This document shows, piece after piece, positions 21,296 to 37,053 of a stretch of 64,000 nucleotides of DNA. Below the pieces are notes generated by a model, which worked only from the letters and a program-made list of their open reading frames with translations, was not told where the DNA came from and ran no database searches. The translations under genes and the position numbers were made by a program. Numbering within the stretch: the first letter of the stretch is position 1; each line of letters opens with the position of its first letter. Source of the DNA: an uncultured Massilia sp. (lineage in GTDB: Bacteria > Pseudomonadota > Gammaproteobacteria > Burkholderiales > Burkholderiaceae_D); NCBI GenBank assembly GCA_913778765.1, contig CAJYXO010000122.1:1-64000 (forward strand), in the 5' to 3' direction.

Positions 21296-21907
21296 TCAGC
21301 CCCACAGCGGCGGATGCGGATCGGCAACGCCGACCAGGCCGGTCTGGTGCTCGATGCCCATCCCCGCAGCCTTCACCATGTTGTCGATCGTGATGTCGAC
21401 ATTGCCCGGGTCGACAGCGGCGGCGCCCGATGCCAGATCGTGCACGCTGGCGAGATAGTCGAAACCCGCCTTCAGGCCGACCGCGGTCTTGTACGCCGCC
21501 TGTTCGTTGGCCAGGTCCATGTGGGCCGTGAACACGCTGGCGACCGAGACCTTGCCATTGTAGGCGACCTGGTCGGTGCCCTGTGCGCCGGCGGCAATCT
21601 GGGTCACGACGTTGTCGATGGTGATGGCTTTCTGGTCCAGCAGGTTGGCCCAGTAATTCACGCCGGCGGCTTCGGCGGCGCGTCCGAACAGGTGCTGGTA
21701 GACGGCACTGACGACGGCGCTATTGCTCATGCCGGCATACATGGTCTGGTATTCGCTCGACGCGGCGAAGTTCGCCGACGCCGTCTGATAGCCGGTCGGG
21801 TAGGTATTCAGGATATTGGTCCAGTAAGCAAGGCCGGCGACGTCCGCCGGGCGGCTGAAATATGCAACGTAGAGTTTCTGCACTTCTGTTTCGGTCGTGG
21901 TCGCCAT
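21296..21907 (-). CDS. Short DUF4214 protein
   Basis: A 203-residue protein made almost entirely of the DUF4214 region. Its N-terminus (VQKLYVAYFSRPADVAGLAY) and later IAAGAQGTDQVAYNGKVSVA match the first 180 or so residues of the large DUF4214 protein at 26892-28985. It lacks the large protein's long Ala/Thr-rich body and C-terminal end, so it probably lacks that protein's secretion signal. There is no N-terminal signal peptide. The second of two adjacent ATGs (21907) is preferred because AAGGAGG lies 5 bases away and the other is only 2 bases away. It lies just past the end of the type I secretion operon on the same strand. It may be a companion, chaperone or minor substrate of that system (inference). 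Confidence 0.8.
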   Translation of the reverse strand: MATTTETEVQKLYVAYFSRPADVAGLAYWTNILNTYPTGYQTASANFAASSEYQTMYAGMSNSAVVSAVYQHLFGRAAEAAGVNYWANLLDQKAITIDNVVTQIAAGAQGTDQVAYNGKVSVASVFTAHMDLANEQAAYKTAVGLKAGFDYLASVHDLASGAAAVDPGNVDITIDNMVKAAGMGIEHQTGLVGVADPHPPLWG

Positions 21908-22089
21908 CATGGCCTCCTTTGGAATAAGTGTAAAAAAATATACCCCATTCCTTTTTTCGGAGGCGCACTCAACCGTGCTAAAATTATCGTAAGTTCTTGA
22001 AAGAAAAAGATTTTTTCAAAGAAATTCAGCAGGCATCAGCCAGAGTGTTAAATGGATGACGCAAGCCGGCTATTTCGTCGATTGATAAA

Positions 22090-22136: not shown

Positions 22137-23495
22137 TCAATGGAAATACGCCGTCACTTCGCGCACGCTGGACTGGTCTAGCGTACCGGCCGCGGCGCGC
22201 AAACGCAGCAGGCCGATCAGGTAGGAATAGCGGGCCTGGGCCAGGTCGCGCTGGCTGGTGTAGAGCTGCTGCTGGGCATTCAGCAGATCCAGGTTGATGC
22301 GCACGCCGCCCTTGATGCTCTGCTCGGTGGCCTTCATCAGTTCCTGGCCAGACGCGACCGCCTTTTCCAGCGCCTCGATCTTGTGCACGCTGGACAGCAC
22401 GATGCTGTGGGCTTTGCGCAGTTCGACCATGACCTTGCTGGTGCGCACGTCCAGGTCGGACTGGGCGCGTCCATAGGCGTCGCCGGCCTGGCGGACCGTC
22501 GCGCTGATGGCGCCGCCCTGGTAGATGGGCAGGCTCACCTGGACACCAATCGCGCGGTTCACCGAGTTCTGCTGGTAGGTATTGATCGATGCGGAATCAT
22601 CCTTGCTATACGTGGCAATGAAGTCGGCGCGCGGATAGTGGCCAGCCTTGGTGCGCTGGATGTCCAGACGCGCGTTCTCGACCGCCAGGCGGGCCGCCGC
22701 CAGCTCGTTGTTGTGTTCGCGGGCGATCTTTTCCCACTCTGCGAAGGTGCCGGTGGTAAGGACAGCTGGCTTGAAACCCTCGCCAAGCTTGTCGAGCGAA
22801 CCCGGATCCATGCCGATGATGCCGGCCAGCGTTTCGCGCGCGGCGACGACGTTGTCCTGTGCTTCGGTCACCTGGGCTTCGGCAATATCGAGGCGGGCCT
22901 GGGTTTCCAGCATGTCGGTCTTGGTGCCCTCGCCTTTTTCGAACAGGCGATTGTTGACATGCATCTGCTCCTTGTACATGTCACGCGATACTTGGGAGAG
23001 ACGCAACTGGTCCTCGGCGAACAGCACGTCCAGATAGGTGCTGACGACGCGCACCGCGACCTCGTCGCCGGCGGCGGCAAACATTGCTTCACCCTGGCGC
23101 GCCTGGACCTTGCCCTGGCGATAACGGGCGATGCCGTCCAGGTTCAGGATCGGCTGGCGCAACTGCACCGCGGAAGAACGGCTGATGTAGCGTGGCCACG
23201 ACTGCGTACGTTGGATGCCAGAATAACCGGCAATTGTCACGTTCTGGAACGTTTCGAGGTCCGCCACGTTGCGGCTGGCAGAGTAGCTGGCCGACACGCT
23301 CGGCAGCAGATAGGAGCGGCCGATGATGCGGTTTTCCTGCGCCGACTCCTTGTCGTAGTAGCTCATGCGGTACTGCGGATCGTTCTTCAGCGCGGCCTCG
23401 TAGGCCTGCTGCAGGGTGACGGCGCCGGCCTGGCCGGCCACCATGGCGCCGAAAGCGGCGAACAACGCCAGACGAAGTGTTCCCTTCACGTTCAC
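22137..23495 (-). CDS. TolC-family outer-membrane channel of the T1SS
   Basis: A 452-residue outer-membrane efflux/secretion duct. A signal peptide (LALFAAFGAMVAGQAGAVTL) is followed by two OEP repeats rich in long helices with periodic Gln/Ala, such as NRLFEKGEGTKTDMLETQAR and TEQSIKGGVRINLDLLNAQQ; the latter is the helix-turn found in type I secretion TolC proteins. Its ATG overlaps the HlyD stop by 4 bp. It completes the ABC-HlyD-TolC set as a dedicated outer-membrane exit. Confidence 0.92.
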   Translation of the reverse strand: MNVKGTLRLALFAAFGAMVAGQAGAVTLQQAYEAALKNDPQYRMSYYDKESAQENRIIGRSYLLPSVSASYSASRNVADLETFQNVTIAGYSGIQRTQSWPRYISRSSAVQLRQPILNLDGIARYRQGKVQARQGEAMFAAAGDEVAVRVVSTYLDVLFAEDQLRLSQVSRDMYKEQMHVNNRLFEKGEGTKTDMLETQARLDIAEAQVTEAQDNVVAARETLAGIIGMDPGSLDKLGEGFKPAVLTTGTFAEWEKIAREHNNELAAARLAVENARLDIQRTKAGHYPRADFIATYSKDDSASINTYQQNSVNRAIGVQVSLPIYQGGAISATVRQAGDAYGRAQSDLDVRTSKVMVELRKAHSIVLSSVHKIEALEKAVASGQELMKATEQSIKGGVRINLDLLNAQQQLYTSQRDLAQARYSYLIGLLRLRAAAGTLDQSSVREVTAYFH

Positions 23496-24844
23496 TCCTC
23501 CGTCAGCGACGATTTCGCACGATCGAAGATCGGCTTCAGCAGGTAATTCATCATGGTGCGCTCGCCCGTCTTCACGAACAGTTCGACCGGCATGCCGGGG
23601 CGCACATCCAGCTTGTGCTGGGCGATCATCTTCTGGCCTGCCGGCGTCACGCGCACGCGCACCCGGTAGAACGGCGCACCGGTGCGCTCGTCGAGGCTGC
23701 GGTCGGCCGCCACCTGTTCGACCTCGCCCGGAATATGCGGGGTCTTGTTGGCGTTGAAGGCAGAGAAGATCAGCTCGGTCTTCAGGCCCGGATGCACACG
23801 GTCGACCAAGTTGACCGCCAGGTTGCCTTCGACAACCATCGGGTCGTCGGTCGGCACGATTTCCATCATCTTGAAGCCGGCCGGCACCACGCCGCCCTGG
23901 GTGAACACTGCGAGGCTGGTCACGGTACCGCTCACCGGCGATTTGACTTCGATGCTGTCGACATCGAACTTCTGACCTTCGAGGCGCGCGGCGAGGGCTT
24001 CCGCTTCGCGCTCGACGTCGGACAGCTGGGTCCGCACTTCCTTCTGGTAATCCTGCATGCGCTGGGCCTTGCGCAGGCCCATCTCCAGCACCTGGCGGCG
24101 CGCACGCGCAATGTTGCCGATGTCTTCCGACACGGCGCCGCTCAGTTGGGCATAGGTACGCTCCAGGTCCAGCAGGCGGTTGCGCGCCACATAGCCTTCC
24201 TTGGCCAGGTCGCGCATGCCGCCAAGCTGCTCCTTCAGGAAGCCCATCTGGGTCTTCTTGCTGTCTCGCGACTCTTCCAATCCGCGGATCTGTTCCTTCA
24301 GGCCGGCGATGTTTTCATCCACGCTGCCCAGCTCATTCTGCAGCGACATCTGGCGCGAAGTCAGCAGCTGGCGTTGCAGTGCCATCAGGTCTGCCACGCG
24401 TGGGTCGTTGCGACGCTGCTCCAGGTCGGCCGGAAACTTGATCGACTTGAGGCCGTCCCGTTCCGCCGTCAGGCGCGCCTCGTTGGCGCGGGCGGTCAGA
24501 TACTGGGCATCGGTGGTCTCGTAGGCGGATTTCGCCTGGATACCGTTCATGCGCACCAGCACCTGGCCTTCCTTTACCAGATCGCCGTCCTTGACCAGGA
24601 TCTCCTTGACGGTGCCACCGGTCTGGTGCTGGATCGCTTTGCGGTTCGATTCCTTGGCCACGGTGCCCTGTAGCGGCACGCCCTTGTCCAAAGGTGCGAA
24701 CAGGCCCCACAGCAGGAAGCCGCCGAAGCCCAGTACCACGATCAGCCAGCCGACGCGGCTGAACTTGCGCGCGTCCGTATTCACTTCCAGCGGCGTCACG
24801 TCGTGCGAGATGACTTCCGCCACATCGTTCTTCAACAATTTCAT
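23492..24844 (-). CDS. HlyD-family periplasmic adaptor of the T1SS
   Basis: A 450-residue membrane-fusion protein. One N-terminal membrane helix (VGWLIVVLGFGGFLLWGLFA, near residue 32) is followed by a lipoyl half-motif. A long coiled-coil hairpin spans about residues 110-290, and a beta-barrel closes with the family ending RVRVTPAGQKMIAQHKLDV and RPGMPVELFVKTGERTMMNY. It links the inner-membrane ABC exporter to the TolC channel. The gene abuts the ABC gene and overlaps the TolC gene by 4 bp, so the three subunits are co-translated. Confidence 0.93.
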   Translation of the reverse strand: MKLLKNDVAEVISHDVTPLEVNTDARKFSRVGWLIVVLGFGGFLLWGLFAPLDKGVPLQGTVAKESNRKAIQHQTGGTVKEILVKDGDLVKEGQVLVRMNGIQAKSAYETTDAQYLTARANEARLTAERDGLKSIKFPADLEQRRNDPRVADLMALQRQLLTSRQMSLQNELGSVDENIAGLKEQIRGLEESRDSKKTQMGFLKEQLGGMRDLAKEGYVARNRLLDLERTYAQLSGAVSEDIGNIARARRQVLEMGLRKAQRMQDYQKEVRTQLSDVEREAEALAARLEGQKFDVDSIEVKSPVSGTVTSLAVFTQGGVVPAGFKMMEIVPTDDPMVVEGNLAVNLVDRVHPGLKTELIFSAFNANKTPHIPGEVEQVAADRSLDERTGAPFYRVRVRVTPAGQKMIAQHKLDVRPGMPVELFVKTGERTMMNYLLKPIFDRAKSSLTEE

Positions 24845-26653
24845 TTATTTACCTTCTTCGGTAGTAGCCGTTGCGGCGGCGGCCGGGGCGGAAGCTGCGC
24901 CTGGTGCGGCGCCAGCCTGGCCCGCAGCAGCAGCGGCTGCGGCTGCGCGCTGGGCCGCCAGTGCCTTCTGGTTGGCTTCGTTCATCGCCGCGATGACGTC
25001 CTTGGTCGGGCCGAACAACTGCACGCTGCCCTCGTTCATCACCAGCAGCTTGGTGGTGATGCCGAGTGCGCTGGGACGGTGGGTAATCAGGACGATCGTC
25101 TTGCCGCGCTGACGCAGGTCGAGGACCGCATTCACCAACGCCAGTTCGCCCTGGTCGTCCAGGTTCGAATTCGGCTCGTCCAGCACGATCAGGGCCGGAT
25201 CGCCGTACAAGGCGCGCGCCAGGCCGAGTCGCTGCTTCTGGCCGCCCGACAGGCCTGCACCGCCATCGCCGAGTTTGGTGTCGTAGCCCTCCGGCAGGCG
25301 CAGAATCATGTCGTGCACGCCGGCGTGCTTGGCGGCCGTGACCACTTTTTCCGAATCGATCTCGCCGAAGCGGGCGATGTTCTCGGCCACGGTGCCGCTG
25401 AACAGTTCGATATCCTGCGGCAGGTAGCCGAGGTGCGGGCCGAGCTGGTCCTTGTTCCAGGCGTAGATATCGGCGCCGTCCAGACGCACTTTACCCATCA
25501 TCGTCGGCCAGACGCCCACCAGCAGGCGCGCCAGGGTCGACTTGCCCGAGCCGCTCGGGCCAATCACGCCGAGCACGTCGCCCGGCTGGATCGCGAACGA
25601 AACGCCCTTGACGACCGGGTTGCGCGCGGTCGGGGGCGCGGCATGCACGCCCTCAACGCTCAGGATGCCTTGCGGTTTCGGTAGCGCCATGCCCGCTTCG
25701 CGCGCCGGGTTCTTCTCGAGCAGCAGGCTCAGGCGGTCGAACGCGCTGCGGGTGCTGCTCCAGCTCTTCCACACGCCAATCAGCTGCTGCACCGGGGCCA
25801 GGGTACGGCCGAGCAGGATCGACGCGGCAATCATCATGCCGGCCGTGATCTTGTTGTCGAGCACCAGCAGCGCGCCCAGGCCGAGCACGGACGACGACAG
25901 GGCCATCTGGAAGAACTTGGTGACGGCGGTGATCGTGCCGGCTTTCTGGCTCGCCTGGGCCTGCAGGCTCAGGAAGCGGCCATGGGTCTTGAACCAGCGC
26001 GCCATCAGGTTCGGCAGCATGCCCATCGATTCGATCACTTCGGCATTGCGCAGGTTGTTGGTCGCCAGGGTGCTGGAAGCGATCGACATCGTATTGGCTT
26101 CCTTCAGCGGCTCGTAGGTCACGCGCTCGTTGACAATCGCCAGGATCACCAGGACGACCACGCCGCACAACGCGAACAGACCCAGCCAGGGCTCGAAGAA
26201 GAAGATCACAATCAGGTACACCGGGAACCAGGGCGCGTCGAAGAAGGCGAACAGCGCGTTACCGGTCAGGAACTGACGTAGTGTGGTCAGGTCGTTCAAG
26301 GCCTGCCCCGCGTTGGTGCCGGCCAGCTTGAGATTCTGCTCGAAAGCGGCTGTGTACAAACGGCGGTTCAGCTTCATGTCGAACTGCGCGCCCACCCGCA
26401 CAAGCACGAAAGAACGGATGAGTTCCAGCGCAGACGAAAACATGAATGCGCCAAGCATCAGCAGGGTGAGCATCAGCAAGGTGATCTCGTTCCGGCTCGA
26501 CAGCACCCGGTCGTATACCTGCAACATGTAGATCGACGGCACCAGCGCCAGCAGGTTGACGATCGCGCTGAACGTCGCAACGGTATAGAACGTTCCTTTG
26601 AAGCTGAGCAGGACGCGCCCGATCTCGGTTTGTGGATTCAAGAATTTTTTCAT
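24845..26653 (-). CDS. Type I secretion ABC permease/ATPase (PrtD type)
   Basis: A 602-residue inner-membrane exporter. Residues about 20-300 form six helices, with the PrtD-type VNLLALVPSIYMLQVYDRVL near the start. The ATPase domain has Walker A GPSGSGKST near residue 362, signature LSGGQKQRLGLARA near 471, Walker B and THRPSALGITTK. There is no N-terminal C39-like domain, so it is of the protease/lipase exporter kind. The C-terminus ends in an Ala-rich tail of about 35 residues. The ATG at 26653 gives the family-like start MKKFLNPQTEIGRVL; a longer frame begins at 26719 inside the promoter region. A consensus-like CRP box lies about 100 bases upstream. Confidence 0.92.
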   Translation of the reverse strand: MKKFLNPQTEIGRVLLSFKGTFYTVATFSAIVNLLALVPSIYMLQVYDRVLSSRNEITLLMLTLLMLGAFMFSSALELIRSFVLVRVGAQFDMKLNRRLYTAAFEQNLKLAGTNAGQALNDLTTLRQFLTGNALFAFFDAPWFPVYLIVIFFFEPWLGLFALCGVVVLVILAIVNERVTYEPLKEANTMSIASSTLATNNLRNAEVIESMGMLPNLMARWFKTHGRFLSLQAQASQKAGTITAVTKFFQMALSSSVLGLGALLVLDNKITAGMMIAASILLGRTLAPVQQLIGVWKSWSSTRSAFDRLSLLLEKNPAREAGMALPKPQGILSVEGVHAAPPTARNPVVKGVSFAIQPGDVLGVIGPSGSGKSTLARLLVGVWPTMMGKVRLDGADIYAWNKDQLGPHLGYLPQDIELFSGTVAENIARFGEIDSEKVVTAAKHAGVHDMILRLPEGYDTKLGDGGAGLSGGQKQRLGLARALYGDPALIVLDEPNSNLDDQGELALVNAVLDLRQRGKTIVLITHRPSALGITTKLLVMNEGSVQLFGPTKDVIAAMNEANQKALAAQRAAAAAAAAGQAGAAPGAASAPAAAATATTEEGK

Positions 26654-26719
26654 GTGTCTCGCGTGAGAGGTCAGATGAAGCGCCCCGGCATGTGCTGTGG
26701 AGAAATCGCTTCCGCGCAC

Positions 26720-26763
26720 ATTATCTACGAAAACACAAAAAAAATGTGATCTGCGTCACATTT
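26720..26763 (-). promoter_or_regulatory. CRP-type box and -10 of the T1SS operon
   Basis: TGTGATCTGCGTCACA (26745-26760) is an exact TGTGA-N6-TCACA site. With its flanking AAA and TTT it is close to the full 22-bp Escherichia coli CRP consensus. On the minus strand a -10-like GATAAT lies at 26720-26725. The box centre is then about 40 bases before the predicted start point, close to class II CRP spacing (-41.5). Confidence 0.75.
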
Positions 26764-26825
26764 TTTAAATTGGAACGACCATAAGGGTCGCTTTCTCACG
26801 ACAAGTGCCGAACCAACAAGAAAAA

Positions 26826-26851: not shown

Positions 26852-26891
26852 CCTCAGTTTAAAGGCCCAAATTACAGGCCCGGGACTGATA

Positions 26892-28985
26892 TTAAGCGTG
26901 CGGCGCGGTGATGATGCCGGTGCTGTCCAGCTTGATGGTCGAAGCGTCCACACCGGTCAGGGTGATGGTGACGATTTCGCCGGTGCCGGTGCCGGTCACA
27001 GCCGAGCTGTAAGCGTGGGTTTCGATCTGCAGGACGGTATCGCCGTTGTTGTTGCTGACGAAGATTTCCATTGCAGCGTCGTTGCCCTTCACGCCGGTCG
27101 CGCCGATTGCGCCCTGAACCAGGGTGTAGCCGGTGCCGACGTACAGCTGGTCGGCGCCTTGCAGGCCGAATGCAGCGATCGACGCATCCTTGTTGCTGAC
27201 AACGTAGACGTCCGAGGTGGCGCCAGCGAAGTTGGTGGTGTGCGATGCATCCAGGGTCACCACGGTGTAGCCCTTGTCGACCAGGACCTTGTTGTAGGCG
27301 TCCACGGTTGCTTTCAGGCCGTTCAGGGTGTCGACGTTCGCGCTGGCGGTCTGCAGAGCAGACACGTCTTTCGTCAGATCAGCGATCTTGTCGTTAGCAG
27401 CGCTCACTGCGTCCGAAGCGTTCTTCTGAGCGCTGACCAGCGGATTGAAGGCGGCGCTGCTAGCAGCGGCTTCAGCGTCAACCAGAGCCTTGAAGTCCAG
27501 GTAAGGAGCGCTGGCTGCACCACCGGCCTTCAGAACAGCCAGTTCGGTCTGGATCTGTGCCAGGGTCGGGTTCGCGCCAGCAGCGACGGTACCAGGGGTG
27601 GTGGTGTTGATGACAGTAGCGATCTTGGCGATCAGGTCAGCTTCGGTGTAGGTGCCAGCATAAGCGCCGCTACCAGCAACGGTGATGTCGCCAGCAGCGT
27701 CCGGAGCCACGTCCAGCAGGTTGGCGCCCAGCTGTGCGGTCACGACGTTGTCGTTCGCCTTGGTGACGTTGGTGAAGGTGGTCGCTTCTGCATTGAATGC
27801 AGCGATCAGCTCGGTCAGGCCGACATAGTCGCTGGCGCTCACGCCGGTAGCGATGGTTGCCTTGCCGTTAGCGATGTTAGCCAGCACCTTCTGGGAGCCG
27901 CCGGCCGGGGTGTACACCAGGGTGGTGCCCGACACGGTGACGGCGCTGCTTGCAGTGCCGCTGACCGGGTTGTTGATGCCGAACGAAGCTTCTTTGGCGG
28001 TCAGATCAGCCAGAGCAGCGGTTTCAGCGGTGTTGGCTGCTTTCAGAGCGGCCTTGGCGGCAGCCAGGGTCGACACTGCGTCGCCCAGGCCGGTCACGTC
28101 AGCGACGTCGGCGTTGGCATCAGCCAGGTTGCTTTGAGCGGTGCTCAGGATCTTGGCGTTGATGGTCTGCTGGTTTGCGACCAGGGCAGCGCGCACGTCG
28201 GCCGAAGTGGTGCTGCTGTACAGGGTGGAAGCAGCGGTGTCGGCGACGCCGTTGACGTCGGTGAAGTCAGCAGCGATATCAGCCACAGCCTTGGTCTTGG
28301 CAGCAGTGATGTCGGCAGCGTCTTTGGTGCCGCTCAGGTCAACGTCCTTGGTCGCGGTCGCGGTCACGTAGGCGTTGTAGGCCTTGGTGGCAGCGCTGGC
28401 TTGTGCCAGGGCGCCGGTCACCGAGAACGGGGTGCCAGCGGCAACGGCGTTAGCGACGGTGGTGTTCAGGGCGGCCGGCGAGGTAGCCGATGCCAGGGTC
28501 AGCGAGTCGGTCACGCCAGCCAGGAAGGTCTTGCCGACCTTGTTGGCTGCGTCGCCGCTGTAACCAGCTTTTTCTGCGTCGGTGTCGATGGCAGCGGTGA
28601 AGGCTGCAGCAGCGGTCACCTTGCTGTTGTAGGCGATCAGGTCGGTGCCTTGTGCGCCCTTGGCGACTTCTTGCACGACGTTGGCGACGGTGACTTTGCC
28701 GGCGTCCAGATTGCCAGCGTAGAAAGCGTTACCAGCAGCGTCAGCAGCGTGGCCGAAGATGTTCTGGTAAATGATGTCGACGATCTGCGCGTTGGTCTTG
28801 CCGCTGAAGGCAGCGGTGTACTCGGACGACTTGGCGAAGTCAGCCGAAATCTGGGCCATCACGGTTGCGCTGCCGTTAGCAGCTTCCAGAACGCCTTCGT
28901 AGTATGCCAGGCCAGCAGCATCTGCCGGACGGTTGAAGTAAGCGACGTACAGTTTCTGAATGTCGTTGTAATAGGTCGTTGCCAT
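26892..28985 (-). CDS. Large DUF4214 protein, probable T1SS substrate
   Basis: A 697-residue protein without an N-terminal signal peptide. Residues 1-180 are DUF4214 (IQKLYVAYFNRPADAAGLAY), shared with the short protein at 21296-21907. Residues about 180-580 are extremely rich in Ala, Thr, Val and Asp and poor in aromatic residues. The last 110 residues form a distinct beta-rich block (VYVVSNKDASIAAFGLQGAD through EIVTITLTGVDASTIKL). There are no RTX nonapeptides. Its composition, lack of Cys and position directly before an ABC-HlyD-TolC operon suggest a secreted surface, S-layer-like or matrix protein, with the uncleaved signal in the C-terminal block (inference). Its DNA is visibly less GC-rich and more uniform in codon use than its neighbours, as in highly expressed genes. 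GGAG lies 5 bases before the ATG. Confidence 0.85.
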   Translation of the reverse strand: MATTYYNDIQKLYVAYFNRPADAAGLAYYEGVLEAANGSATVMAQISADFAKSSEYTAAFSGKTNAQIVDIIYQNIFGHAADAAGNAFYAGNLDAGKVTVANVVQEVAKGAQGTDLIAYNSKVTAAAAFTAAIDTDAEKAGYSGDAANKVGKTFLAGVTDSLTLASATSPAALNTTVANAVAAGTPFSVTGALAQASAATKAYNAYVTATATKDVDLSGTKDAADITAAKTKAVADIAADFTDVNGVADTAASTLYSSTTSADVRAALVANQQTINAKILSTAQSNLADANADVADVTGLGDAVSTLAAAKAALKAANTAETAALADLTAKEASFGINNPVSGTASSAVTVSGTTLVYTPAGGSQKVLANIANGKATIATGVSASDYVGLTELIAAFNAEATTFTNVTKANDNVVTAQLGANLLDVAPDAAGDITVAGSGAYAGTYTEADLIAKIATVINTTTPGTVAAGANPTLAQIQTELAVLKAGGAASAPYLDFKALVDAEAAASSAAFNPLVSAQKNASDAVSAANDKIADLTKDVSALQTASANVDTLNGLKATVDAYNKVLVDKGYTVVTLDASHTTNFAGATSDVYVVSNKDASIAAFGLQGADQLYVGTGYTLVQGAIGATGVKGNDAAMEIFVSNNNGDTVLQIETHAYSSAVTGTGTGEIVTITLTGVDASTIKLDSTGIITAPHA

Positions 28986-29097: not shown

Positions 29098-29113
29098 TGT
29101 GACCGTCATCACA
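29098..29113 (-). promoter_or_regulatory. CRP-type box upstream of the large DUF4214 gene
   Basis: TGTGACCGTCATCACA is an exact TGTGA-N6-TCACA site. It is centred about 94 bases before the start point predicted from the extended -10 at 29018-29023, near the -93.5 class I position known for CRP. Confidence 0.7.
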
Positions 29114-29404: not shown

Positions 29405-30811
29405 TTAACGTGAACTTTGCTGCCAATACGTTACGCCATTCGCCGTACGCTTATCATCCAAGCGGCTATCGAAGATATACGCAGCCGAACCGCCGTTTTG
29501 CTTGCTCAGCAATCCTTGCAAGTTCAAGACCCCTTGCTGGCTGCTGCCAACGCTGCCGTTCAAGCGCCCATCCGCCCCAACGGTTCCCTCGCCCTGTAGT
29601 TTGAACGCTTCGGCTCCACTCGTCAGATCGAAGCTGGTAGCAAAACTCTTGCTGCCGAAATTCACCGTCAGGGCGCCGTTCGACAACGAGGCCGGCGTCT
29701 CAACGCGAAAGGTCGGTGTATAGTCCGTATAAATAAAGGCTTCGCTCGCCTTGAGCTGAAAGCCGACGCTACCGTTGTTCGGCATTACAAACGTATCAGG
29801 TCCCATACTGCGCAATAAGGCGTAGTTACCATTCAGCGCCAGGATTTCGTTCTGCTCCGCCGCCTGAGGAAGATTGAACGTCGGCGCCCGGCCAGCCACC
29901 ACCTGCCAGCGCCCCCAGACGACATCGCGGTCCGGCAACACGATGGCCGCCACGACCGGCGGCGCCGGCGGCGGCGTCACCGGCGGCTCCGACGGCACCG
30001 GGGCCGGCACCGGATCGGGCACCGTCACCACCGGATCAGGCACCTGCACCGGGGGCGGCGCCGGCTTCTCGACCGCCTTGACCAGGTCCACCGTCTTTTG
30101 CGCATCCAGGTTCGGCTGGCCGCCAACCGCGGCGCCCCCGCCCACGCCCACGCCATGCGCCAGCGGCTCATCCGCGCGCGGCGGCGACACCTGGTCCGGC
30201 GACAGCGGGCTGCCCTGCATCAGCTGGGGCGCGACCTGGCCGCGCTGCACCTGCAGCAGCTGGCCGCGCTGGGCCGCGCTCAGTTCACGGCTGGTGCTGC
30301 CCTCGCAGGGACCGGCGCCGCCCGGATTGCAGGCGCCGCCGAAGCCGCTCATCACGATGGCGCCGGACAGCACCGCGACGCGCGAGGTGTCGTGGTCGGT
30401 GAACACCGTGAAGTCGGTGCCGCGCACGCCGATCGCCGCGACCGGGGTGTTGAAACGGAAGTTCTGGCGCGCCTTCTTGACGGCGTCGCCGGATTTGCTG
30501 CGTGCAACGCCGCTCAGCAGTTCGAACTTGACGCGGGTGTTGGCCGGATTCTTCGCGTCGATCTGGTAGGTGTCGATCCGCGCCTGGCTGTTCGGGCGCA
30601 GGATGAACAGGCCGTTGTCGGCCGTCTTGATGTACATGAAGCCGTCCGGGCCGGTGCTGAGCATCTGGCCTTCCTGGACGAAGCCGCCTTCGACGGCGGC
30701 TTGGCCGGCCACATTGGCCTTGCCCGCAACAAAAATGATCTTGCCAGCCTCAGCTGCCTGAGCGGTCTGGACGACGCACGCGAATGCGATAACGATGAGT
30801 GAACGCCACAT
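29405..30811 (-). CDS. Secreted FecR-domain protein with a C-terminal small barrel
   Basis: A 468-residue exported protein. A signal peptide (SLIVIAFACVVQTAQAAEA, cut after AQA) is followed by a FecR domain at about residues 45-170 (NGLFILRPNSQARIDTYQID, then AAIGVRGTDFTVFTDHDTS). Gln-rich and Pro-rich linkers (about 195-330, PVTPPPAPPVV) lead to a C-terminal beta-rich domain (FGSKSFATSFDLTSGAEAFK, then GVLNLQGLLSKQNGGSAAYI). The last part resembles the small handle barrel of TbpB-like proteins (inference). Classical FecR is an anti-sigma factor in the inner membrane; here there is no membrane helix and no ECF sigma gene, so that role is unlikely. ATG 30811 has AAGGGG upstream and follows a class II-like CRP box. 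It diverges from the cyclase operon and is probably its periplasmic or surface partner. Confidence 0.82.
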   Translation of the reverse strand: MWRSLIVIAFACVVQTAQAAEAGKIIFVAGKANVAGQAAVEGGFVQEGQMLSTGPDGFMYIKTADNGLFILRPNSQARIDTYQIDAKNPANTRVKFELLSGVARSKSGDAVKKARQNFRFNTPVAAIGVRGTDFTVFTDHDTSRVAVLSGAIVMSGFGGACNPGGAGPCEGSTSRELSAAQRGQLLQVQRGQVAPQLMQGSPLSPDQVSPPRADEPLAHGVGVGGGAAVGGQPNLDAQKTVDLVKAVEKPAPPPVQVPDPVVTVPDPVPAPVPSEPPVTPPPAPPVVAAIVLPDRDVVWGRWQVVAGRAPTFNLPQAAEQNEILALNGNYALLRSMGPDTFVMPNNGSVGFQLKASEAFIYTDYTPTFRVETPASLSNGALTVNFGSKSFATSFDLTSGAEAFKLQGEGTVGADGRLNGSVGSSQQGVLNLQGLLSKQNGGSAAYIFDSRLDDKRTANGVTYWQQSSR

Positions 30812-30831
30812 GGATTTCCCCTTTTCGCCCG

Positions 30832-30875
30832 AATGTACCTTGCTTGGCGAAACTAGCTCTGTGATAAGCATCACA
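30832..30875 (-). promoter_or_regulatory. CRP-type box and -10 upstream of fecR
   Basis: TGTGATAAGCATCACA (30860-30875) is an exact TGTGA-N6-TCACA palindrome. On the minus strand TACATT (30832-30837) is a plausible -10. The box centre lies 35.5 bases from its downstream end, essentially class II CRP spacing. The site is shared with the divergent cyclase promoter region. Confidence 0.75.
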
Positions 30876-30959
30876 TTGTAATCCCGATGAGCGATGGGCG
30901 GAGGAATCAATAAATACCGAACATATCAAAATAATAATGTCTGAGAGCAACAAACTCGT

Positions 30960-30965
30960 TATACT
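30960..30965 (+). promoter_or_regulatory. -10 element of the cyclase operon
   Basis: TATACT lies 41 bases before the GTG start of the cyclase in an AT-rich stretch. No good -35 is seen. The CRP-type box at 30860-30875 is about 104 bases before the predicted start point. Confidence 0.4.
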
Positions 30966-31005
30966 CTGTCGTTGAAAAGAATGACAACAAGATAAAAGAG
31001 CAGGC

Positions 31006-32865
31006 GTGGCACTTCTTCCTTCCATTTCTTCGGCGGCCTTGCGCTGGCTGATCGCACTCGCCGCCGTGCTGTTGTGCGCATGGATGCAATGGGGCCCGCT
31101 GCCCCGCAACGCCTTCCTGCCCGACGAATGGCTGCGCGATGCCTACCTGCGTCTGCAGGTCAGTACGGCGGAAGAGCCGCGTGTGCTGGTCGTCGACATC
31201 GACGAGGCCAGCCTGGCCCGGCTCGGCCCCTGGCCATGGCCGCGCGAGCGGATCGCCGACCTGGTCGAGATGCTGCTGACCCGTTACGAAGCGCGCGGCG
31301 TAGCGCTCGACATCATGTTGCCCGAAAGCGAAAAAACCGTCGGCGATACGCGCCTGGCGTTGTTGGCGCGCCACGGTCCGGTGGTGCCGCTGCAGGCTTT
31401 CGACTTCAACCGCACGCGCGAACTGCAGGTGCGCGTGGGTGCGCTCGGCGGCGCCGTCGCCTCGCCGCTGCGCGGCGTGAAGGCCACCGGCTATATCGGC
31501 AACTACCCTGCCCTGGCGGCGGCACCGCATGTCGGCGCGGCCGCCTACATCACGGACCCCGACGGCGTCCTGCGGCGCGTGCCCCTGCTGACCGAATTCG
31601 AAGGGAAGCAGTATCCGGCGCTGGCGCTGGCCCTGCTCGAATGCTGCTCCGGCAAGCCGGCGCCGCGGCTCGACACCAACGCGATCCGGGTCGGCTTCGA
31701 CCGCGACTGGAATGCCTACACCGTGGTCAGCGCCGCCGACATCCTCGACGGCGCCATCGATCCGCCCAGCGCCGCGCGGCGCCTGGTGGTGGTCGGCTCG
31801 TCCTCGCTGGGCATGGCGGACCGCGTGACCACGCCGCTGGGCGCCGATCGTCCCGGGCTCGGGGTCCAGGCCAACATGCTGACCACCCTGCTCGACCGCC
31901 AGGCCGGGCGGGCGCCCGCGCCGTGGCCGGGACGCCTGATCGCCTGCGCCTTCGCGCTGCTGACCGCCGTGGTGGCGACGCTCGCCTTCCCGCGCCTGTC
32001 CGCCGTCGCCAGCATGGGCCTGCTGGCCGCCGGTTCGGCGCTGTGGCTGGTCCTCGCCGGCCTTGCCAGCCGCCACGATCCGGCGTTCTCGCCGGTCGGG
32101 CCGCTGGCGACCAGCCTGTTCCTGCTGGCGGTGGCCGTGCCCTGGCAGTGGCAGCTTGCCCAGCGCCGCTCGCGCCATCTGCTGTCGACCCTGCGCCAGT
32201 ATGTCGCGCCGTCCGTGGTCGAGGAACTGCTGCGCAGCGAAGCCGAGGATCCGCTGGCGCCGCGCCAGCTCGACGTCACCACCCTGATCGCCGACATGGA
32301 AGGCTATACCAGCCAGGTCGAGGCGCTGCCGGTGGCGGAAGCGTCGCGCCTGACGCGCGACTTCCTGGCCTGCCTGACCGGCCCCGTCATCGACACCATG
32401 GGCACGCTGGACAAATACACCGGCGACGGCCTGGTCGCGTTCTGGGGCGCGCCGCTGCCGATCGCGGAGCATGCCGACCTCGCGCTCGACGCCGCCCGCG
32501 AGATCCTGCGCCGCGTCGAGGCGCTGAGCCTGCGCCACCAGGCCGCCGGCCACGCGCCGCTGCGGGTCCGGATCGGCATCGAAAGCGGGCCGGCGATGGC
32601 AGGCGACTTCGGCACTTCCTTCCGCAGCATATATACTGCGGTCGGCGACAGCGTGAACACCGCCTCGCGCCTGGAACAGGTGGCGCGCGATTTCCCCCAC
32701 GACGTCATCATCGGCGCCGGCACGGTCGAACGTGCGCGGCGCCATACATTCATCCTGCTGGGCGAGCGCCGGCTGCGCGGCAAGGAAAACCCGACCATTC
32801 TTTACACTTTGACATCCAGCATGAAGCAGGAAGGCAGCACCGTTCTCCGCGAGTCCACCCGATGA
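31006..32865 (+). CDS. CHASE2-domain class III adenylate cyclase
   Basis: A 619-residue membrane enzyme that should make cAMP from ATP. One N-terminal helix (WLIALAAVLLCAW) precedes an extracytoplasmic CHASE2 sensor (about residues 30-300, including VLVVDIDEASLARLGPWPWP). Three helices follow (about 306-385), then a cytoplasmic catalytic domain. Catalytic residues are complete: metal aspartates D430 (IADMEGYT) and D474 (YTGDG), adenine-selecting K470, and transition-state N551 and R555 (VNTASRLE). The start is GTG at 31006, the first in-frame start that keeps the N-terminal helix. It overlaps the next gene by ATGA and heads a cyclase/TPR-barrel/CRP operon, divergent from fecR. The lysine favours cAMP over cGMP. 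Confidence 0.9.
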   Translation: MALLPSISSAALRWLIALAAVLLCAWMQWGPLPRNAFLPDEWLRDAYLRLQVSTAEEPRVLVVDIDEASLARLGPWPWPRERIADLVEMLLTRYEARGVALDIMLPESEKTVGDTRLALLARHGPVVPLQAFDFNRTRELQVRVGALGGAVASPLRGVKATGYIGNYPALAAAPHVGAAAYITDPDGVLRRVPLLTEFEGKQYPALALALLECCSGKPAPRLDTNAIRVGFDRDWNAYTVVSAADILDGAIDPPSAARRLVVVGSSSLGMADRVTTPLGADRPGLGVQANMLTTLLDRQAGRAPAPWPGRLIACAFALLTAVVATLAFPRLSAVASMGLLAAGSALWLVLAGLASRHDPAFSPVGPLATSLFLLAVAVPWQWQLAQRRSRHLLSTLRQYVAPSVVEELLRSEAEDPLAPRQLDVTTLIADMEGYTSQVEALPVAEASRLTRDFLACLTGPVIDTMGTLDKYTGDGLVAFWGAPLPIAEHADLALDAAREILRRVEALSLRHQAAGHAPLRVRIGIESGPAMAGDFGTSFRSIYTAVGDSVNTASRLEQVARDFPHDVIIGAGTVERARRHTFILLGERRLRGKENPTILYTLTSSMKQEGSTVLRESTR

Positions 32866-34139
32866 GCCGGCGTCTGCTTGCGGCCGCGCTGCCGGCCGCG
32901 TTGGCGTTCATGGCCGCCCTGGCGCCCGCCTGCGCGCGCGCCGCCGAGGACGCGTCCTTGCCGGCGGCAGCCGCACCGGACACCGCGGCGGGCGCGCCGG
33001 ACCAGCAGGAAGCCCTGTACCAGGAAGCCCTGCTGGCCCTGTCCGAAGGCCGCCGCACGGATGCCTCGCGGATCCTGCGGCGCCTGGTCGAACTGGCGCC
33101 GCGCCACGCCGGCGCCTGGCTCGAACTGGCCCTGACCCAGTGCGGCCTCGGCAACGCCGACGAAGCCGAGCGCCTGTTCGCCACCGTCGAAACCCGTTTC
33201 AATCCGTCGCGCGACATCCTCGAAGTGATCTCGCAGACGCGCGAGGAAGGCTGCCGTCCGTGGACCCCGAACAGCGCGCTGTCGGTGTCCTTCGGCCGCG
33301 GCTTCGACCACAACGTCAACCAGGGCGCCAGCACCTCCACGCCCACGCTGGGCGGCGTTTCGGTAGAACTGCTGGACGACTTCCTGCCGAAGAAGGATGC
33401 CTACGTGACCGCCGGCGTCGACTACCTGCGCGACCTGACGCCGAACGGCACGATCGGCTTCGCGCAGTTGCAGTCGCGCCGCAACGACAGCCTGCGCCAG
33501 TTCGATTCCAGCGCGCTGTTCGGCGGCGTCGAATCGCCCTGGCGCTTCGGCAAGTGGGCCCTGCGCTCGACGCTGGTGGCCGGCATGGTCAGCCTGGGCG
33601 GGCACCTGTACCAGCGCCAGGCCCAGGCCCAGCTGCGGGTGGCGCCGCCGCTGTCGCTGTCGAACAACACCACCTTCAACCTGATGGGCGGCTGGACCTG
33701 GACCGATTATCAGCGCCTGACGAACTTCGACGCCCGCACGCTGGAGCTGCGCCCGGAGCTGTCGCACCGCACCGGCAGCCTGTACCTGGCCACCAGCCTC
33801 GGCCTGCTGAGCGACCGCGGCAACGCCCTGCGGCCGGGCGGCAACCGCCATGGCCAGCTGCTGAACCTGCTGCTGCGCAGCCCCTTGTGGGCCGGCCTGA
33901 CAGGCGAACTCGGCTACACCCGCCAGACCTGGCGCAGCGCCCAGGCCTACGCGCCGGATCTCCTGATTCCGGAGGTCCGCAACCAGGAAACGCATGTGCT
34001 GCGCGCCACCCTGACTTATCCGATCGACAAGAACCACAGCCTGATGCTCGAAGCGCGTGGCGTACTGAATCGGGAAAACATCGAGATCTTTCAGTACAAT
34101 AACCGCCAGTTCCAGTTGAGCTGGCGTTGGCAACCCTGA
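32862..34139 (+). CDS. TPR plus outer-membrane beta-barrel protein
   Basis: A 425-residue exported protein. A signal peptide (LPAALAFMAALAPACARAAE) is followed by a short TPR region (about residues 45-125, EALLALSEGRRTDASRILRR) and a barrel of about 14 strands from residue 145, which begins LSVSFGRGFDHNVNQG and ends with the aromatic-rich FQLSWRWQP. This two-part plan, periplasmic TPR plus barrel, is that of Slam/DUF560 (type XI) translocons and of several porin-like proteins. Family membership cannot be settled by eye. It sits between the cyclase and the CRP-type regulator with an ATGA overlap upstream. It may export or display the FecR-domain protein or pass a surface signal (inference). 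Confidence 0.72.
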   Translation: MSRRLLAAALPAALAFMAALAPACARAAEDASLPAAAAPDTAAGAPDQQEALYQEALLALSEGRRTDASRILRRLVELAPRHAGAWLELALTQCGLGNADEAERLFATVETRFNPSRDILEVISQTREEGCRPWTPNSALSVSFGRGFDHNVNQGASTSTPTLGGVSVELLDDFLPKKDAYVTAGVDYLRDLTPNGTIGFAQLQSRRNDSLRQFDSSALFGGVESPWRFGKWALRSTLVAGMVSLGGHLYQRQAQAQLRVAPPLSLSNNTTFNLMGGWTWTDYQRLTNFDARTLELRPELSHRTGSLYLATSLGLLSDRGNALRPGGNRHGQLLNLLLRSPLWAGLTGELGYTRQTWRSAQAYAPDLLIPEVRNQETHVLRATLTYPIDKNHSLMLEARGVLNRENIEIFQYNNRQFQLSWRWQP

Positions 34140-34156: not shown

Positions 34157-34894
34157 ATGACCGCTCTCAGCAAGGCTTTCTCTTCCGAACCCGTGCCCGC
34201 ACTGCAGGAAGTGCAGATCCAGGTCCACCTGCGCAAGATTCCGCTGCTGGCCGACCTGACCCAGGACGAGATCGCCGCGATCCGGCCCGAGTTGCGCTTC
34301 CGCCACTACAACAAGCGCGAAGTCGTGCTGCACAAGGGCGGCAGCGGCGACGGCCTGCTGTTCCTGCTGTCCGGCCAGCTGCAGGTGGTCGACATCACCG
34401 AGGATGGCCGCGCGATCGGCCTGCGCATGCTGGCGCCGGGCGACTTCTTCGGCGAAATCGCGCTGATCAACAATTCCACCCGCTCGGCCTCGGTGGTGGC
34501 GATCAGCGACGTGCTGGTGGCCTTCCTGCCGGCGGCCACCGCCCTGCACCTGTTCTCGCATTCGCCCAGCGTGGCCAAGCAGATGCTCAAGCACCTGGCG
34601 CAGAAGATCCAGCGCGATTCGGAATTCCGCGCGGTCCTGAGCATCAACAACACCGCGCGCCGCATCTACACTTATTTGTCGCTGCTGCAGAAACAGACCG
34701 ACGACGGCAGCGACCAGGCGGTCGTGGAAAACCTGCCGACCCACCAGGACATCGCCAACATGATCAACACCAGCCGCGAGACCGTGACCCGCGCGCTGCT
34801 GACCCTGGTACAGCAGGGGATCGTGCAGAAGGAAGCGAACCGCCTGGTCATTCTCGATCCCGAGGCGCTTCAGAAGCTCGTCCAGGGTCCCTGA
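34157..34894 (+). CDS. CRP/FNR-family regulator, CRP-like
   Basis: A 245-residue cyclic-nucleotide-responsive regulator. The cNMP-binding domain spans about residues 25-145. Its phosphate cassette FGEIALINNSTRSAS keeps the key E100, R109 and S110. A dimer helix follows, then a winged HTH with HQDIANMINTSRETVTRALL. R207, E208 and R212 match the three CRP residues that read TGTGA (RExxxR). There are no FNR-type N-terminal cysteines. ATG 34157 is the first ATG in frame; a TTG at 34127 would overlap the barrel gene. It is the last gene of the cyclase operon. Three exact TGTGA-N6-TCACA boxes lie nearby, so local autoregulatory cAMP control is likely. It could be the organism's only CRP or a local paralogue. 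Confidence 0.88.
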   Translation: MTALSKAFSSEPVPALQEVQIQVHLRKIPLLADLTQDEIAAIRPELRFRHYNKREVVLHKGGSGDGLLFLLSGQLQVVDITEDGRAIGLRMLAPGDFFGEIALINNSTRSASVVAISDVLVAFLPAATALHLFSHSPSVAKQMLKHLAQKIQRDSEFRAVLSINNTARRIYTYLSLLQKQTDDGSDQAVVENLPTHQDIANMINTSRETVTRALLTLVQQGIVQKEANRLVILDPEALQKLVQGP

Positions 34895-35023
34895 TCGGGC
34901 CGATTTGCGGACATTTGTTCCGCATTTCGTTACATTTGTCGTAATTGTGCGGCAGTACCGTAGAGTATAATTTCGCGCTCTGATGGATTGCCAAATGATG
35001 AAGACTTACCCGACGCTCCTGCC
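34895..35023 (+). promoter_or_regulatory. Promoter region of the polysaccharide export cluster
   Basis: A perfect -10 TATAAT lies at 34966-34971, with a weak -35 (TTGTGC, 34945-34950, 15-base spacing). A small inverted repeat (TGCGGA 34906-34911, TCCGCA 34919-34924) could end the CRP transcript. No CRP-type box is seen here. Confidence 0.5.
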
Positions 35024-35830
35024 ATGATCTCTCCTTCGATGCTGCGCGGCCTGTGGGCCTATCGCGGCTTTGTGCTGGGCAGCGTCAAGCGCGAATTCCA
35101 GGCGAAGTACATGAACGCGATGCTGGGCGCCCTGTGGTCGCTGCTGTCGCCGCTCGCCATGATCGTGGTGTACACCGTGATCTTTTCCGAAGTCATGCAC
35201 AACAAGCTGCCCGGCGCCGGCGGCAACGCGCCCTTCGCCTACAGCATCTACCTGTGCGCCGGCATCCTGACCTGGGGCCTGTTCGCCGAGATCGTCGCGC
35301 GCGCCCAGAACATGTTCATCGAACAGGCCAACCTGATCAAGAAGATCAGCTTCCCGCGCATCTGCCTGCCGCTGATCGTGGTGCTCAACGCGCTGGTCAA
35401 CTTCGGCATCATCTTCGGCCTGTTCGTCCTGTTCCTGATCGGTTCCGGCACCTTTCCGGGCCCGGTCTTCCTCGCCCTCGTGCCGGTGCTGCTGATCCAG
35501 CTGCTGCTGTCGATCGGCATCGGCATGGTCGCCGGCGTGCTGAACGTGTTCTTCCGCGACGTCGGCCAGTTCGTGACGATCGCGATGCAGTTCTGGTTCT
35601 GGTTCACGCCGGTGGTGTACCCGGTCACGATCCTGCCGCAGCAGGTGCGCGAGCTGCTTTCCTGGAATCCGATGGCGCGCCTGGTCGAAGCCTACCAGCA
35701 GATCCTCGTCAAGGGCCTGGCGCCGGACTGGCTGGGGCTGCTGCCGGTGCTGGTGCTGGCACTGCTGCTGTGCGCGCTGGGGCTGCGCCTGTTCCGCCGC
35801 CGCGCCGGCGAGATGGTGGACGAACTCTGA
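35024..35830 (+). CDS. wzm: Polysaccharide ABC exporter permease (Wzm/KpsM type)
   Basis: A 268-residue inner-membrane ABC-2 permease with six helices. It begins with the amphipathic YRGFVLGSVKREFQAKYMNA segment typical of O-antigen and capsule exporters, followed by LGALWSLLSPLAMIVVYTVI and the late WFWFTPVVYPVTILP block. With the next gene it forms an ABC transporter that moves an undecaprenyl-linked polysaccharide across the inner membrane. ATG 35024 is preferred over a TTG 12 codons upstream; neither has a strong ribosome site. The stop and the next start overlap by one base (TGATG). Confidence 0.9.
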   Translation: MISPSMLRGLWAYRGFVLGSVKREFQAKYMNAMLGALWSLLSPLAMIVVYTVIFSEVMHNKLPGAGGNAPFAYSIYLCAGILTWGLFAEIVARAQNMFIEQANLIKKISFPRICLPLIVVLNALVNFGIIFGLFVLFLIGSGTFPGPVFLALVPVLLIQLLLSIGIGMVAGVLNVFFRDVGQFVTIAMQFWFWFTPVVYPVTILPQQVRELLSWNPMARLVEAYQQILVKGLAPDWLGLLPVLVLALLLCALGLRLFRRRAGEMVDEL

Positions 35831-37053
35831 TGGGCCGCATCGTCGTTTCCAACCTGGGCAAGGCCTACCGCCAGTACCCGACGCGCTGGTCGCGCCTGGC
35901 CGAATGGGTGCTGCCCGGCCACAAGCCGCGCCACAAGCTCACCTGGGTGCTGCGCGAGATCGGCTTCACCGTGGAGCCGGGCCAGGCCGTCGGCCTGATC
36001 GGCATCAACGGCGCCGGCAAGAGCACCCTGCTCAAGCTGATCACCGGCACCACCCTGCCGACCACCGGCACCGTCTGGATGGAAGGCCGCGTGGCCGCCC
36101 TGCTGGAACTGGGCATGGGCTTCCACCCGGACTTCACGGGACGCCAGAACGTGTTCATGGCCGGCCAGCTGCTCGGCATGACGGTCGAGGAAATCGAGCG
36201 CCTGATGCCGGAGATCGAAGCCTTCGCCGAGATCGGCGACTACATGGACCAGCCGGTGCGCGTGTACTCCAGCGGCATGCAGATGCGGGTCGCGTTCAGC
36301 GTCGCCACCGCGCGCCGCCCGGACATCCTGATCGTCGACGAAGCCCTGTCGGTGGGCGACGCCTATTTCCAGCACAAGAGCTTCGACCGCATCCGCAGCT
36401 TCCGCCGCCACGGCACCACCCTGCTGCTGGTCTCGCACGACAAGCAGGCGGTCCAGTCGCTGTGCGACCGCGCCATCCTGCTCGACGGCGGCCGCCTGGC
36501 CAAGGAAGGTCCGCCGGAAGAGATCATGGACTATTACAACGCCCTGATCGCCGAGCGCGAGAACGCGACCGTACGCCTGAACGCGACCCCGGAAGGCAAG
36601 ATGCAGACCGTGTCCGGCACCGGCGAAGCCACCGTCAGCGACATCGCCCTGCTCGACGAAACCGGCCAGCGCGTCGAAGTGGTCGACGTCGGCGCCGAGG
36701 TCACCCTCGAGGTGAAGGTAACGGCCAAGGCGCACATCCCGCGCATGGTGCTGGGCTACATGATCAAGGACCGGCTCGGCCAGCCGATGTACGGCACCAA
36801 CACCCACCTGAAGGAACTGCCGCTGGCGGACGTGGCGGCCGGCGAAGAGGTCGTCTACCGCTTCCGCTTCCCGATGAACCTCGGGGCCGGCACCTATTCC
36901 GTCGCCACCGCGATCGTCAGCACCGAGACCCATCTCGTCAACAACTATGAATGGCGCGACCTGGCGCTGGTGTTTACCGTGATGAACATGCGCCGGCCGC
37001 ACTTCGAGGGTTCCGCCTGGCTCGACCCCGTCATCGACATCGAACGCACATAA
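35830..37053 (+). CDS. wzt: Polysaccharide ABC exporter ATPase with Wzt C-terminal domain
   Basis: A 407-residue ATPase. The nucleotide-binding domain (about residues 1-250) has Walker A GINGAGKSTLLKLI, the export-type signature YSSGMQMRVAFSVA, Walker B ILIVDEALSVGD and the switch VSHDKQAVQ. Residues about 275-400 form a beta-sandwich Wzt_C domain (VTLEVKVTAKAHIP through GTYSVATAIV). In O8/O9a-type systems that domain binds the capped end of the finished O-polysaccharide. Its presence predicts that the glycan carries a terminal modification recognised before export; the FkbM methyltransferase directly downstream is the obvious candidate. Confidence 0.92.
   Translation: MGRIVVSNLGKAYRQYPTRWSRLAEWVLPGHKPRHKLTWVLREIGFTVEPGQAVGLIGINGAGKSTLLKLITGTTLPTTGTVWMEGRVAALLELGMGFHPDFTGRQNVFMAGQLLGMTVEEIERLMPEIEAFAEIGDYMDQPVRVYSSGMQMRVAFSVATARRPDILIVDEALSVGDAYFQHKSFDRIRSFRRHGTTLLLVSHDKQAVQSLCDRAILLDGGRLAKEGPPEEIMDYYNALIAERENATVRLNATPEGKMQTVSGTGEATVSDIALLDETGQRVEVVDVGAEVTLEVKVTAKAHIPRMVLGYMIKDRLGQPMYGTNTHLKELPLADVAAGEEVVYRFRFPMNLGAGTYSVATAIVSTETHLVNNYEWRDLALVFTVMNMRRPHFEGSAWLDPVIDIERT

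Follow-up and report, generated by a model that had tools for sequence, protein, structure and literature searches.

A FecR protein, a CHASE2 adenylate cyclase and a Slam-like outer-membrane barrel as candidate parts of one trans-envelope cAMP circuit in an uncultured Massilia

A window of 64,000 nucleotides (positions 1 to 64,000 of contig CAJYXO010000122.1, here C122), taken from the assembly of an uncultured Massilia sp. (GCA_913778765.1; 5.53 Mb, 297 contigs, 96% complete), contains a fecR gene, a gene for a class III adenylate cyclase with a CHASE2 sensor domain and a gene for a tetratricopeptide repeat (TPR) protein that ends in an outer-membrane barrel, referred to here as the TPR-barrel. 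It is proposed, with somewhat better than even confidence, that these genes, together with a neighbouring crp gene, encode one trans-envelope cyclic AMP (cAMP) circuit. Its probable role is to sense the outer membrane and to control, by way of cAMP and Crp, a regulon of its own. The fecR gene is divergent from the cyclase gene, the TPR-barrel gene overlaps the latter by 4 bases and crp lies directly downstream (Table 1). The trio had been read as one signalling unit in a first-pass annotation made from the letters alone, and the gene boundaries given there hold except for the start of fecR, for which ATG 30811 (468 residues) is a better choice than the TTG of the 501-residue frame. Domain scans covered 19 proteins of the region, the trio included.

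Conservation of the unit

Eighty named loci with a relative of the cyclase (numbered with the prefix L) were compared, neighbours being counted within the fetched stretch. FecR is present in 73 of them, the TPR-barrel in 71 and Crp in 74, and all three accompany the cyclase in 70, as befits the single unit that had been suspected from the window. The best named relatives of the window's cyclase belong to Massilia, and the order TolC-HlyD-PrtD-DUF4214-fecR / cyclase-TPR-barrel-crp recurs across Oxalobacteraceae. In 67 loci fecR is divergent from the cyclase gene with a gap of less than 900 bases, and it lies further away in L075, L078 and L131. In L122 and L131 the TPR-barrel gene immediately follows fecR and not the cyclase gene, an arrangement that ties TPR-barrel and fecR together. 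In the whole assembly CHASE2, class III cyclase and FecR domains were each found just twice, always on contigs C122 and C77. Since two of each occur, paired on two contigs, and the partners of the trio are kept in 70 of the 80 loci, the proximity of FecR and CHASE2 is not a matter of chance.

The second CHASE2 adenylate cyclase of the genome and its second FecR gene lie on contig C77 (locus L148, 7784-10051 and 15044-16006), with an apparent two-partner secretion gene pair, recognized by eye, between them. This pair was considered as a copy of the window unit and rejected, the cargo-tail profile described below giving no match on its FecR.

The FecR protein

Residues 1-22 of FecR resemble a signal peptide by eye, and the structural model begins with a short signal-like helix followed by the FecR domain, which is recognized by PF04773 at residues 51-152 (E 2e-12) and in 69 of 69 aligned sequences. 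A membrane-strength hydrophobic stretch was sought in the protein and none was found, so that the inner-membrane helix and the cytoplasmic anti-sigma part of a classical FecR protein are missing; likewise, there is no extracytoplasmic function (ECF) sigma gene among the 19 scanned proteins. A Cys falls within residues 9-30 in only 19 of the 69 aligned proteins, and there is therefore no conserved lipobox. The earlier description of an exported FecR protein with no membrane helix and no sigma factor is thus sustained, as is that of a small beta-rich domain at its end. In the model (predicted local distance difference test, pLDDT, 85; predicted template modelling score, pTM, 0.50; 69-sequence alignment) residues 291-468 form a barrel.

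The best structural match of the FecR domain is PupR (6ovk; Z 15.1, root-mean-square deviation (rmsd) 3.0, 141 residues aligned). The tail matches NHBA (6cuj; Z 11.9, rmsd 3.7, 139 aligned), TbpB (Z 9.7, rmsd 4.8, 149 aligned), fHbp (Z 9.6, rmsd 5.5, 143 aligned) and the haemophore HphA (Z 8.9, rmsd 4.1, 134 aligned), and it also resembles Ail, a membrane barrel (Z 10.4). Foldseek placed TbpB at E 2.3e-5, with lipocalins lower in the ranking. NHBA apart, these Z values are similar to one another and little above the middling level of the tool, so the cargo match rests on a consistent family and not on a single score. As modelled, the FecR tail has the C-terminal eight-stranded TbpB/NHBA-type fold of the cargo barrels of Slam, the translocon of type XI secretion. 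A sequence search of the PDB with the FecR alignment gave no match at E 10. A profile of the cargo tail was also compared with FecR proteins of other families, giving 98.7% for L131, 93-94% for L176, 94% for L225 and less than 40% for the other tested ones. It had been supposed that FecR might be the ligand or surface sensor that informs the cyclase; the protein is probably not simply a ligand.

Cys161 and Cys169 of FecR are invariant in the 69 aligned sequences, and so are Cys94 and Cys131 of the TPR-barrel in 66; both pairs are likely disulfides of exported proteins. A WGR motif is invariant in the 69 FecR proteins. The related WGxW was tried as a diagnostic motif and given up: it is present at 9 of 16 class-level FecR loci, against 1 of 30 control FecR proteins, yet the phylum loci have it in just 2 of 23 cases, and it is therefore not general.

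The TPR-barrel and its apparent link to Slam

The model of the TPR-barrel (pLDDT 92.5) consists of five TPR helices followed by 14 strands. Its best solved matches are two 14-strand channels: CymA (Z 21.5, rmsd 3.5, 277 aligned), which also came first in Foldseek, and OmpG (Z 19.4). Barrels of 14 strands match at Z 18-21. No Slam structure was among the matches shown for the barrel, which is uninformative either way. A sequence search of the PDB with the TPR-barrel alignment returned mostly TPR- and repeat-type matches.

The connection with Slam comes from profile comparisons. Restricted to the barrel, the window family matches SlipAM proteins at 99.7% and 99.2%; these intermediates in turn match strong Slam proteins at 98.5-99.9% (98.5% with the barrel only), and reversed controls stayed at 0.5-6%. 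The TPR-barrel thus appears linked to the Slam family through intermediates, as a remote relative. Outer-membrane barrels may share ancestry generally, and the profile result is therefore a link and not a proof of function. Because the FecR domain resembles PupR and the tail resembles Slam cargo, the TPR-barrel may be the outer-membrane carrier or receptor of FecR.

The CHASE2 adenylate cyclase

The neighbour of fecR had been called a cyclase with a CHASE2 sensor, and both domains were recovered (CHASE2 E 2.8e-42, Guanylate_cyc E 1.2e-9). The catalytic and specificity residues D430, K470, D474, T544, N551 and R555 are identical in 79 of 79 aligned cyclases and align with those of the adenylate cyclase 1wc1; in class III cyclases the Lys/Thr pair marks ATP as the substrate. 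With its full catalytic set and adenine-type specificity residues, the enzyme is predicted to make cAMP. Its membrane stretches, one at the N-terminus and about three further on, place the CHASE2 domain in the periplasm.

Crp and the CRP palindromes

The crp gene, the three perfect CRP palindromes, the DUF4214 gene and the type I secretion operon had gone unmentioned in the first-pass annotation. All three perfect copies of the palindrome TGTGA-N6-TCACA in the 5.53-Mb assembly lie in this locus, one each ahead of fecR, the DUF4214 gene and the secretion operon; the reversed control has none. Sites with one mismatch elsewhere in the genome are at background (18 versus 16 in the control). The sites are kept among relatives: in the gap between fecR and the cyclase gene, 33 of 67 orthologous regions have a perfect palindrome, a further 33 differ from it at one position and L122 at three. 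Sites with at most one mismatch stand upstream of PrtD (54 of 54 orthologous regions), DUF4214 (39 of 39) and fecR (68 of 70), with 0 in the reversed control.

The cyclase is present in 28 of 145 genomes of the family (E 1e-80). Perfect sites average 3.1 per genome in these 28 (reversed control 0.5) versus 1.2 (control 0.6) in the other 117; since genomes without the cyclase still average 1.2, some sites serve other systems. Among the matches listed, which comprise 75 perfect sites from 24 of the 28 cyclase genomes, 52 lie less than 15 kb from the cyclase, and sites at this distance occur in 23 of the 24 genomes. The cAMP-pocket and recognition-helix positions of Crp, presumably the equivalents of Glu72, Arg82, Ser83, Arg180, Glu181 and Arg185 of E. 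coli CRP, are kept in 73 aligned sequences, one position being S or T (Thr in 6 of 73). The adjacent Crp is accordingly a candidate to bind both cAMP and the three palindromes.

FecR proteins beside Slam-like barrels in other genomes

A search of 185 genomes of the class with the family model PF04575 gave matches in 20 genomes, 14 of them above the family cut-off. Genome G293, with strong Slam copies, was set apart, and 20 of 21 PF04575 places were examined. A FecR gene lies within 0.8 kb in 16 of these 20 places (L189-L192 are the exceptions, L190 and L191 among them being apparently false or broken matches), and a CHASE2 cyclase within about 9 kb in 6 of 20, two of the six in one genome.

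A wider search of the phylum with an alignment bridging the two groups gave matches in 105 of 299 genomes at 1e-8, many in the TPR part only; as this alignment includes FecR-linked members, the survey is only partly independent. Its 40 best rows supplied 34 Slam-like loci; 23 of them have FecR at a distance of no more than 1.5 kb, and 13 have a CHASE2 protein in the region. As a control, 30 loci of other FecR genes of the family were examined, and 0 of 30 have a Slam-like gene in the 1.5-kb flanks. Six of the 13 CHASE2 proteins are cyclases; of the other seven, three were scanned and proved to be hybrid histidine kinases. Locus L245 has contiguous genes for FecR, SlipAM (PF04575 E 3.6e-18) and a CHASE2 cyclase, and the same three neighbours occur in L246, L249 and L250; the FecR tails of all four look Slam-cargo-like by eye, with FFGP-type motifs. 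In L231, L233 and L240, FecR and a Slam-like barrel stand beside CHASE2 hybrid histidine kinases (HisKA, HATPase, receiver and Hpt domains). Random association in other genomes, the outcome that had been named as fatal to a functional unit, is not what the neighbourhood survey found: FecR recurs next to Slam-like barrels, often with CHASE2. The pairing of FecR with a Slam-like protein is common, and the cargo-type tail is not general.

Proposed circuit and alternative explanations

In the simplest account the parts of the circuit are supported by sequence and we infer the relay steps that join them. FecR would be exported by Sec, and the Slam-like TPR-barrel in the outer membrane would handle its C-terminal barrel, so that FecR would report on the outer membrane or the surface. 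The FecR domain, or the TPR domain together with FecR, would then touch the periplasmic CHASE2 domain and set the activity of the cyclase. The cyclase is predicted to produce cAMP, and Crp with cAMP, acting on the three palindromes, would control fecR, the DUF4214 gene and the type I exporter, and possibly also the cyclase operon through the promoter region that it has in common with fecR. The output would be the amount of secreted DUF4214 surface protein, with FecR itself lying within a feedback loop.

A more specific form of this circuit is put forward tentatively: FecR might serve as a secretion-checkpoint messenger. It would be a type XI cargo, and the CHASE2 cyclase would read whether it stays in the periplasm or leaves by way of the Slam-like barrel; cAMP and Crp would then tune how strongly fecR, the type I exporter and the DUF4214 surface protein are expressed. 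If this were true, the count of an exported protein would tell the bacterium the capacity or coverage of its outer surface, much as FlgM does in flagellar assembly, and type XI secretion would gain a role in signalling through the FecR/Slam-like/CHASE2 module, which would act on cyclases or on hybrid kinases in other proteobacteria.

Several observations weigh against the circuit as drawn. The window TPR-barrel has no match to PF04575 (E up to 0.01; in its own genome, E up to 0.001), this family is not among the 25 listed of 44 for it, and direct profile comparison of the window family with the strongest Slam proteins gives 0.6-0.8% with the barrel only and 30-65% with the TPRs, which is not significant. 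The FecR barrel is visible by structure and not by Pfam, PF01298 (TbpB_B_D) being found in 2 of 69 sequences at a best E of 0.043 and not in the window FecR. Seven of the 80 cyclase loci (L103, L106, L125, L134, L140, L141 and L142) have no FecR, also by family profile, L106 and L125 being short contigs and L141 and L142 covering 10 kb on each side; conversely, no FecR is close to the Slam-like gene in 4 of 20 and 11 of 34 loci. By eye, some 15 of 24 FecR tails from the phylum are Pro-rich or otherwise lack a barrel, 7 are barrel-like and 2 unclear, so that export as a cargo cannot be general; the barrel-less ones include those beside the hybrid kinases of L231, L233 and L240 and beside the CHASE2 cyclase of L236. 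The binding of cAMP and DNA by Crp is, moreover, itself a prediction.

These barrel-less FecR proteins suit a different arrangement, which has a real though minor chance of being correct. Here the TPR-barrel would be a receptor or channel for an external ligand, of the kind of NsrA, an outer-membrane barrel required for signalling through CHASE2 cyclases (PMC13001267, PMC7529298), and FecR would be a periplasmic adaptor that relays to CHASE2 and is never exported, its own barrel only docking. The channels CymA and OmpG as top solved matches agree with such a receptor. Against it, the FecR tail in this family folds like exported Slam cargo, and the TPR-barrel leads by profile, through intermediates, to Slam.

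It seems unlikely that FecR and the TPR-barrel are a plain type XI pair, with FecR exported to some unrelated role at the surface, and that the cyclase and Crp are adjacent only as regulators of a whole surface island. The position of the TPR-barrel with fecR, outside the cyclase operon, in L122 and L131 would agree with this, as would the FecR-less cyclase loci L140 and L142, which still adjoin type I secretion genes; what it fails to account for is the recurrence of FecR and a Slam-like barrel with CHASE2 proteins of two outputs in other families (the 6 of 20 and 13 of 34 loci above), where the common feature is the periplasmic CHASE2 sensor.

Some structural hits recall instead a polysaccharide secretin of the BcsC/PgaA kind, which would serve the neighbouring surface-polysaccharide cluster while cAMP signalling tunes export. 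Foldseek ranked BcsC second (E 4.7e-9), the secretin barrel 4y25, presumably PgaA, matches at Z 14.8, the PgaA family model TIGR03939 gives a weak match (E 0.008) far under its cut-off (14.4 bits against 366.65), and Wzm/Wzt and glycosyltransferase genes follow crp. The BcsC alignment has an rmsd of 15.9, however, the 14 modelled strands are nearer to 14-strand barrels than to 4y25, and the profile link leads to SlipAM proteins; this reading is very improbable. That FecR is a normal anti-sigma partner of a sigma factor encoded elsewhere, as its best match PupR might suggest, has next to no probability given the missing membrane part, the lack of a sigma gene among the scanned proteins and the conserved linkage to the cyclase instead.

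Relation to known systems

In the FecA-FecR-FecI and PupB-PupR-PupI systems a periplasmic FecR domain stands between an outer-membrane protein and an inner-membrane output; the window unit differs from them in that its scanned neighbours include no sigma factor and its output is a cyclase.

The association of a CHASE2 adenylate cyclase, FecR and a TPR protein is already known. A cluster of Campylobacterota encodes a CHASE2 adenylate cyclase, a FecR outer-membrane protein, a TPR protein and a phosphodiesterase, for which one pathway was proposed (PMC9239204). The same three kinds of protein are clustered there as in the window; the part of that paper available mentions no Slam-like barrel for the TPR protein, no cargo fold and no Crp regulon, and the phosphodiesterase has no counterpart among the 19 scanned proteins of the window region. 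In Burkholderiales, the BiofilmReg operon pairs a LysM-FecR protein with a CHASE2 histidine kinase (PMC5192318); a FecR protein stands beside a CHASE2 sensor as in the window, whereas the output is a kinase, a LysM domain is present and the accessible text describes no Slam-like barrel. In Sinorhizobium meliloti, the outer-membrane beta-barrel protein NsrA is needed for signalling through the CHASE2 cyclases CyaD1, CyaD2 and CyaK, with output via the CRP-family regulator Clr (PMC7529298, PMC13001267), which is a precedent from experiment for placing a barrel of the outer membrane ahead of such cyclases. NsrA is far larger than the window TPR-barrel (barrel portion at residues 600-1200), and the two are likened by description, not by sequence.

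The Slam (type XI) translocon is a 14-strand barrel with a TPR domain, its cargo has a C-terminal eight-stranded barrel, and soluble cargo is known (PMC8406197, PMC12282271); the window TPR-barrel would be a remote relative only, and FecR is unmentioned in the main text of both papers. No literature joining FecR to Slam proteins was found in a search of main texts, supplements and most subscription papers lying outside it; likewise, none of the matches listed contained both DUF560 and FecR, and no published description of the Slam link, the cargo fold or the Crp regulon of the cyclase/FecR/TPR unit was found. Since the signals of CHASE2 have been called unknown (PMC5192318), the FecR/Slam-like/CHASE2 module offers a testable partner for this sensor. 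It does the same for environmental Slam-like proteins, 9 of 10 clusters of which have no characterised member according to PMC8406197. The three-site Crp regulon, in turn, is a ready reporter for what the cyclase senses, in a genus that is mostly environmental.

Features of the locus and neighbouring genes

Table 1. Genes and CRP palindromes of the locus, with positions in the window
Feature	Position	Strand	Description	Basis
fecR	29405..30811	-	Signal peptide, FecR/CSS-like domain (~20-213), disordered Pro-rich linker (~215-290), predicted Slam-cargo-like C-terminal barrel (~291-468)	PF04773 and model
CHASE2 adenylate cyclase, class III	31006..32865	+	GTG start	PF05226, PF00211
TPR-barrel	32862..34139	+	TPR and 14-stranded outer-membrane barrel, putatively Slam/SlipAM-like	Model and barrel-only profile comparison
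crp	34157..34894	+	Crp/Fnr regulator, predicted to bind cAMP	PF00027, PF13545
DUF4214 gene	26892..28985	-	697 residues	PF13946
Type I secretion ABC transporter	24845..26719	-	PrtD class	TIGR01842
HlyD-family adaptor	23492..24844	-		TIGR01843
TolC-family outer-membrane protein	22137..23495	-		TIGR01844
Second, short DUF4214 gene	21296..21910	-	Behind the secretion operon, on the same strand	PF13946 (E 5.9e-17)
Perfect CRP palindrome	30860..30875		Between fecR and the cyclase gene	
Perfect CRP palindrome	29098..29113		Upstream of the DUF4214 gene	
Perfect CRP palindrome	26745..26760		Upstream of the type I secretion operon	

On the fecR side the locus continues with the DUF4214 gene and then the type I secretion operon, both on the minus strand. 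A strong terminator-like hairpin (26822-26855) behind the DUF4214 gene parts it from the secretion operon, and each has its own CRP palindrome. The 697-residue DUF4214 protein has an acidic composition without Cys or Trp and is likely a type I substrate and surface protein; RTX repeats were looked for in it and not found. With a putative type I secreted protein next to genes for surface polysaccharide, the locus resembles the S-layer arrangement of Caulobacter. A likeness of the DUF4214 protein to Caulobacter RsaA was expected, but a PDB sequence search at E 10 gave no match, and the S-layer idea therefore stays a guess. After crp, the stretch 34988-45552 encodes a Wzm/Wzt-type polysaccharide exporter, an FkbM methyltransferase and a 1364-residue multi-glycosyltransferase, and a relative of the ABC-2 permease is present in 55 of the 80 cyclase loci.

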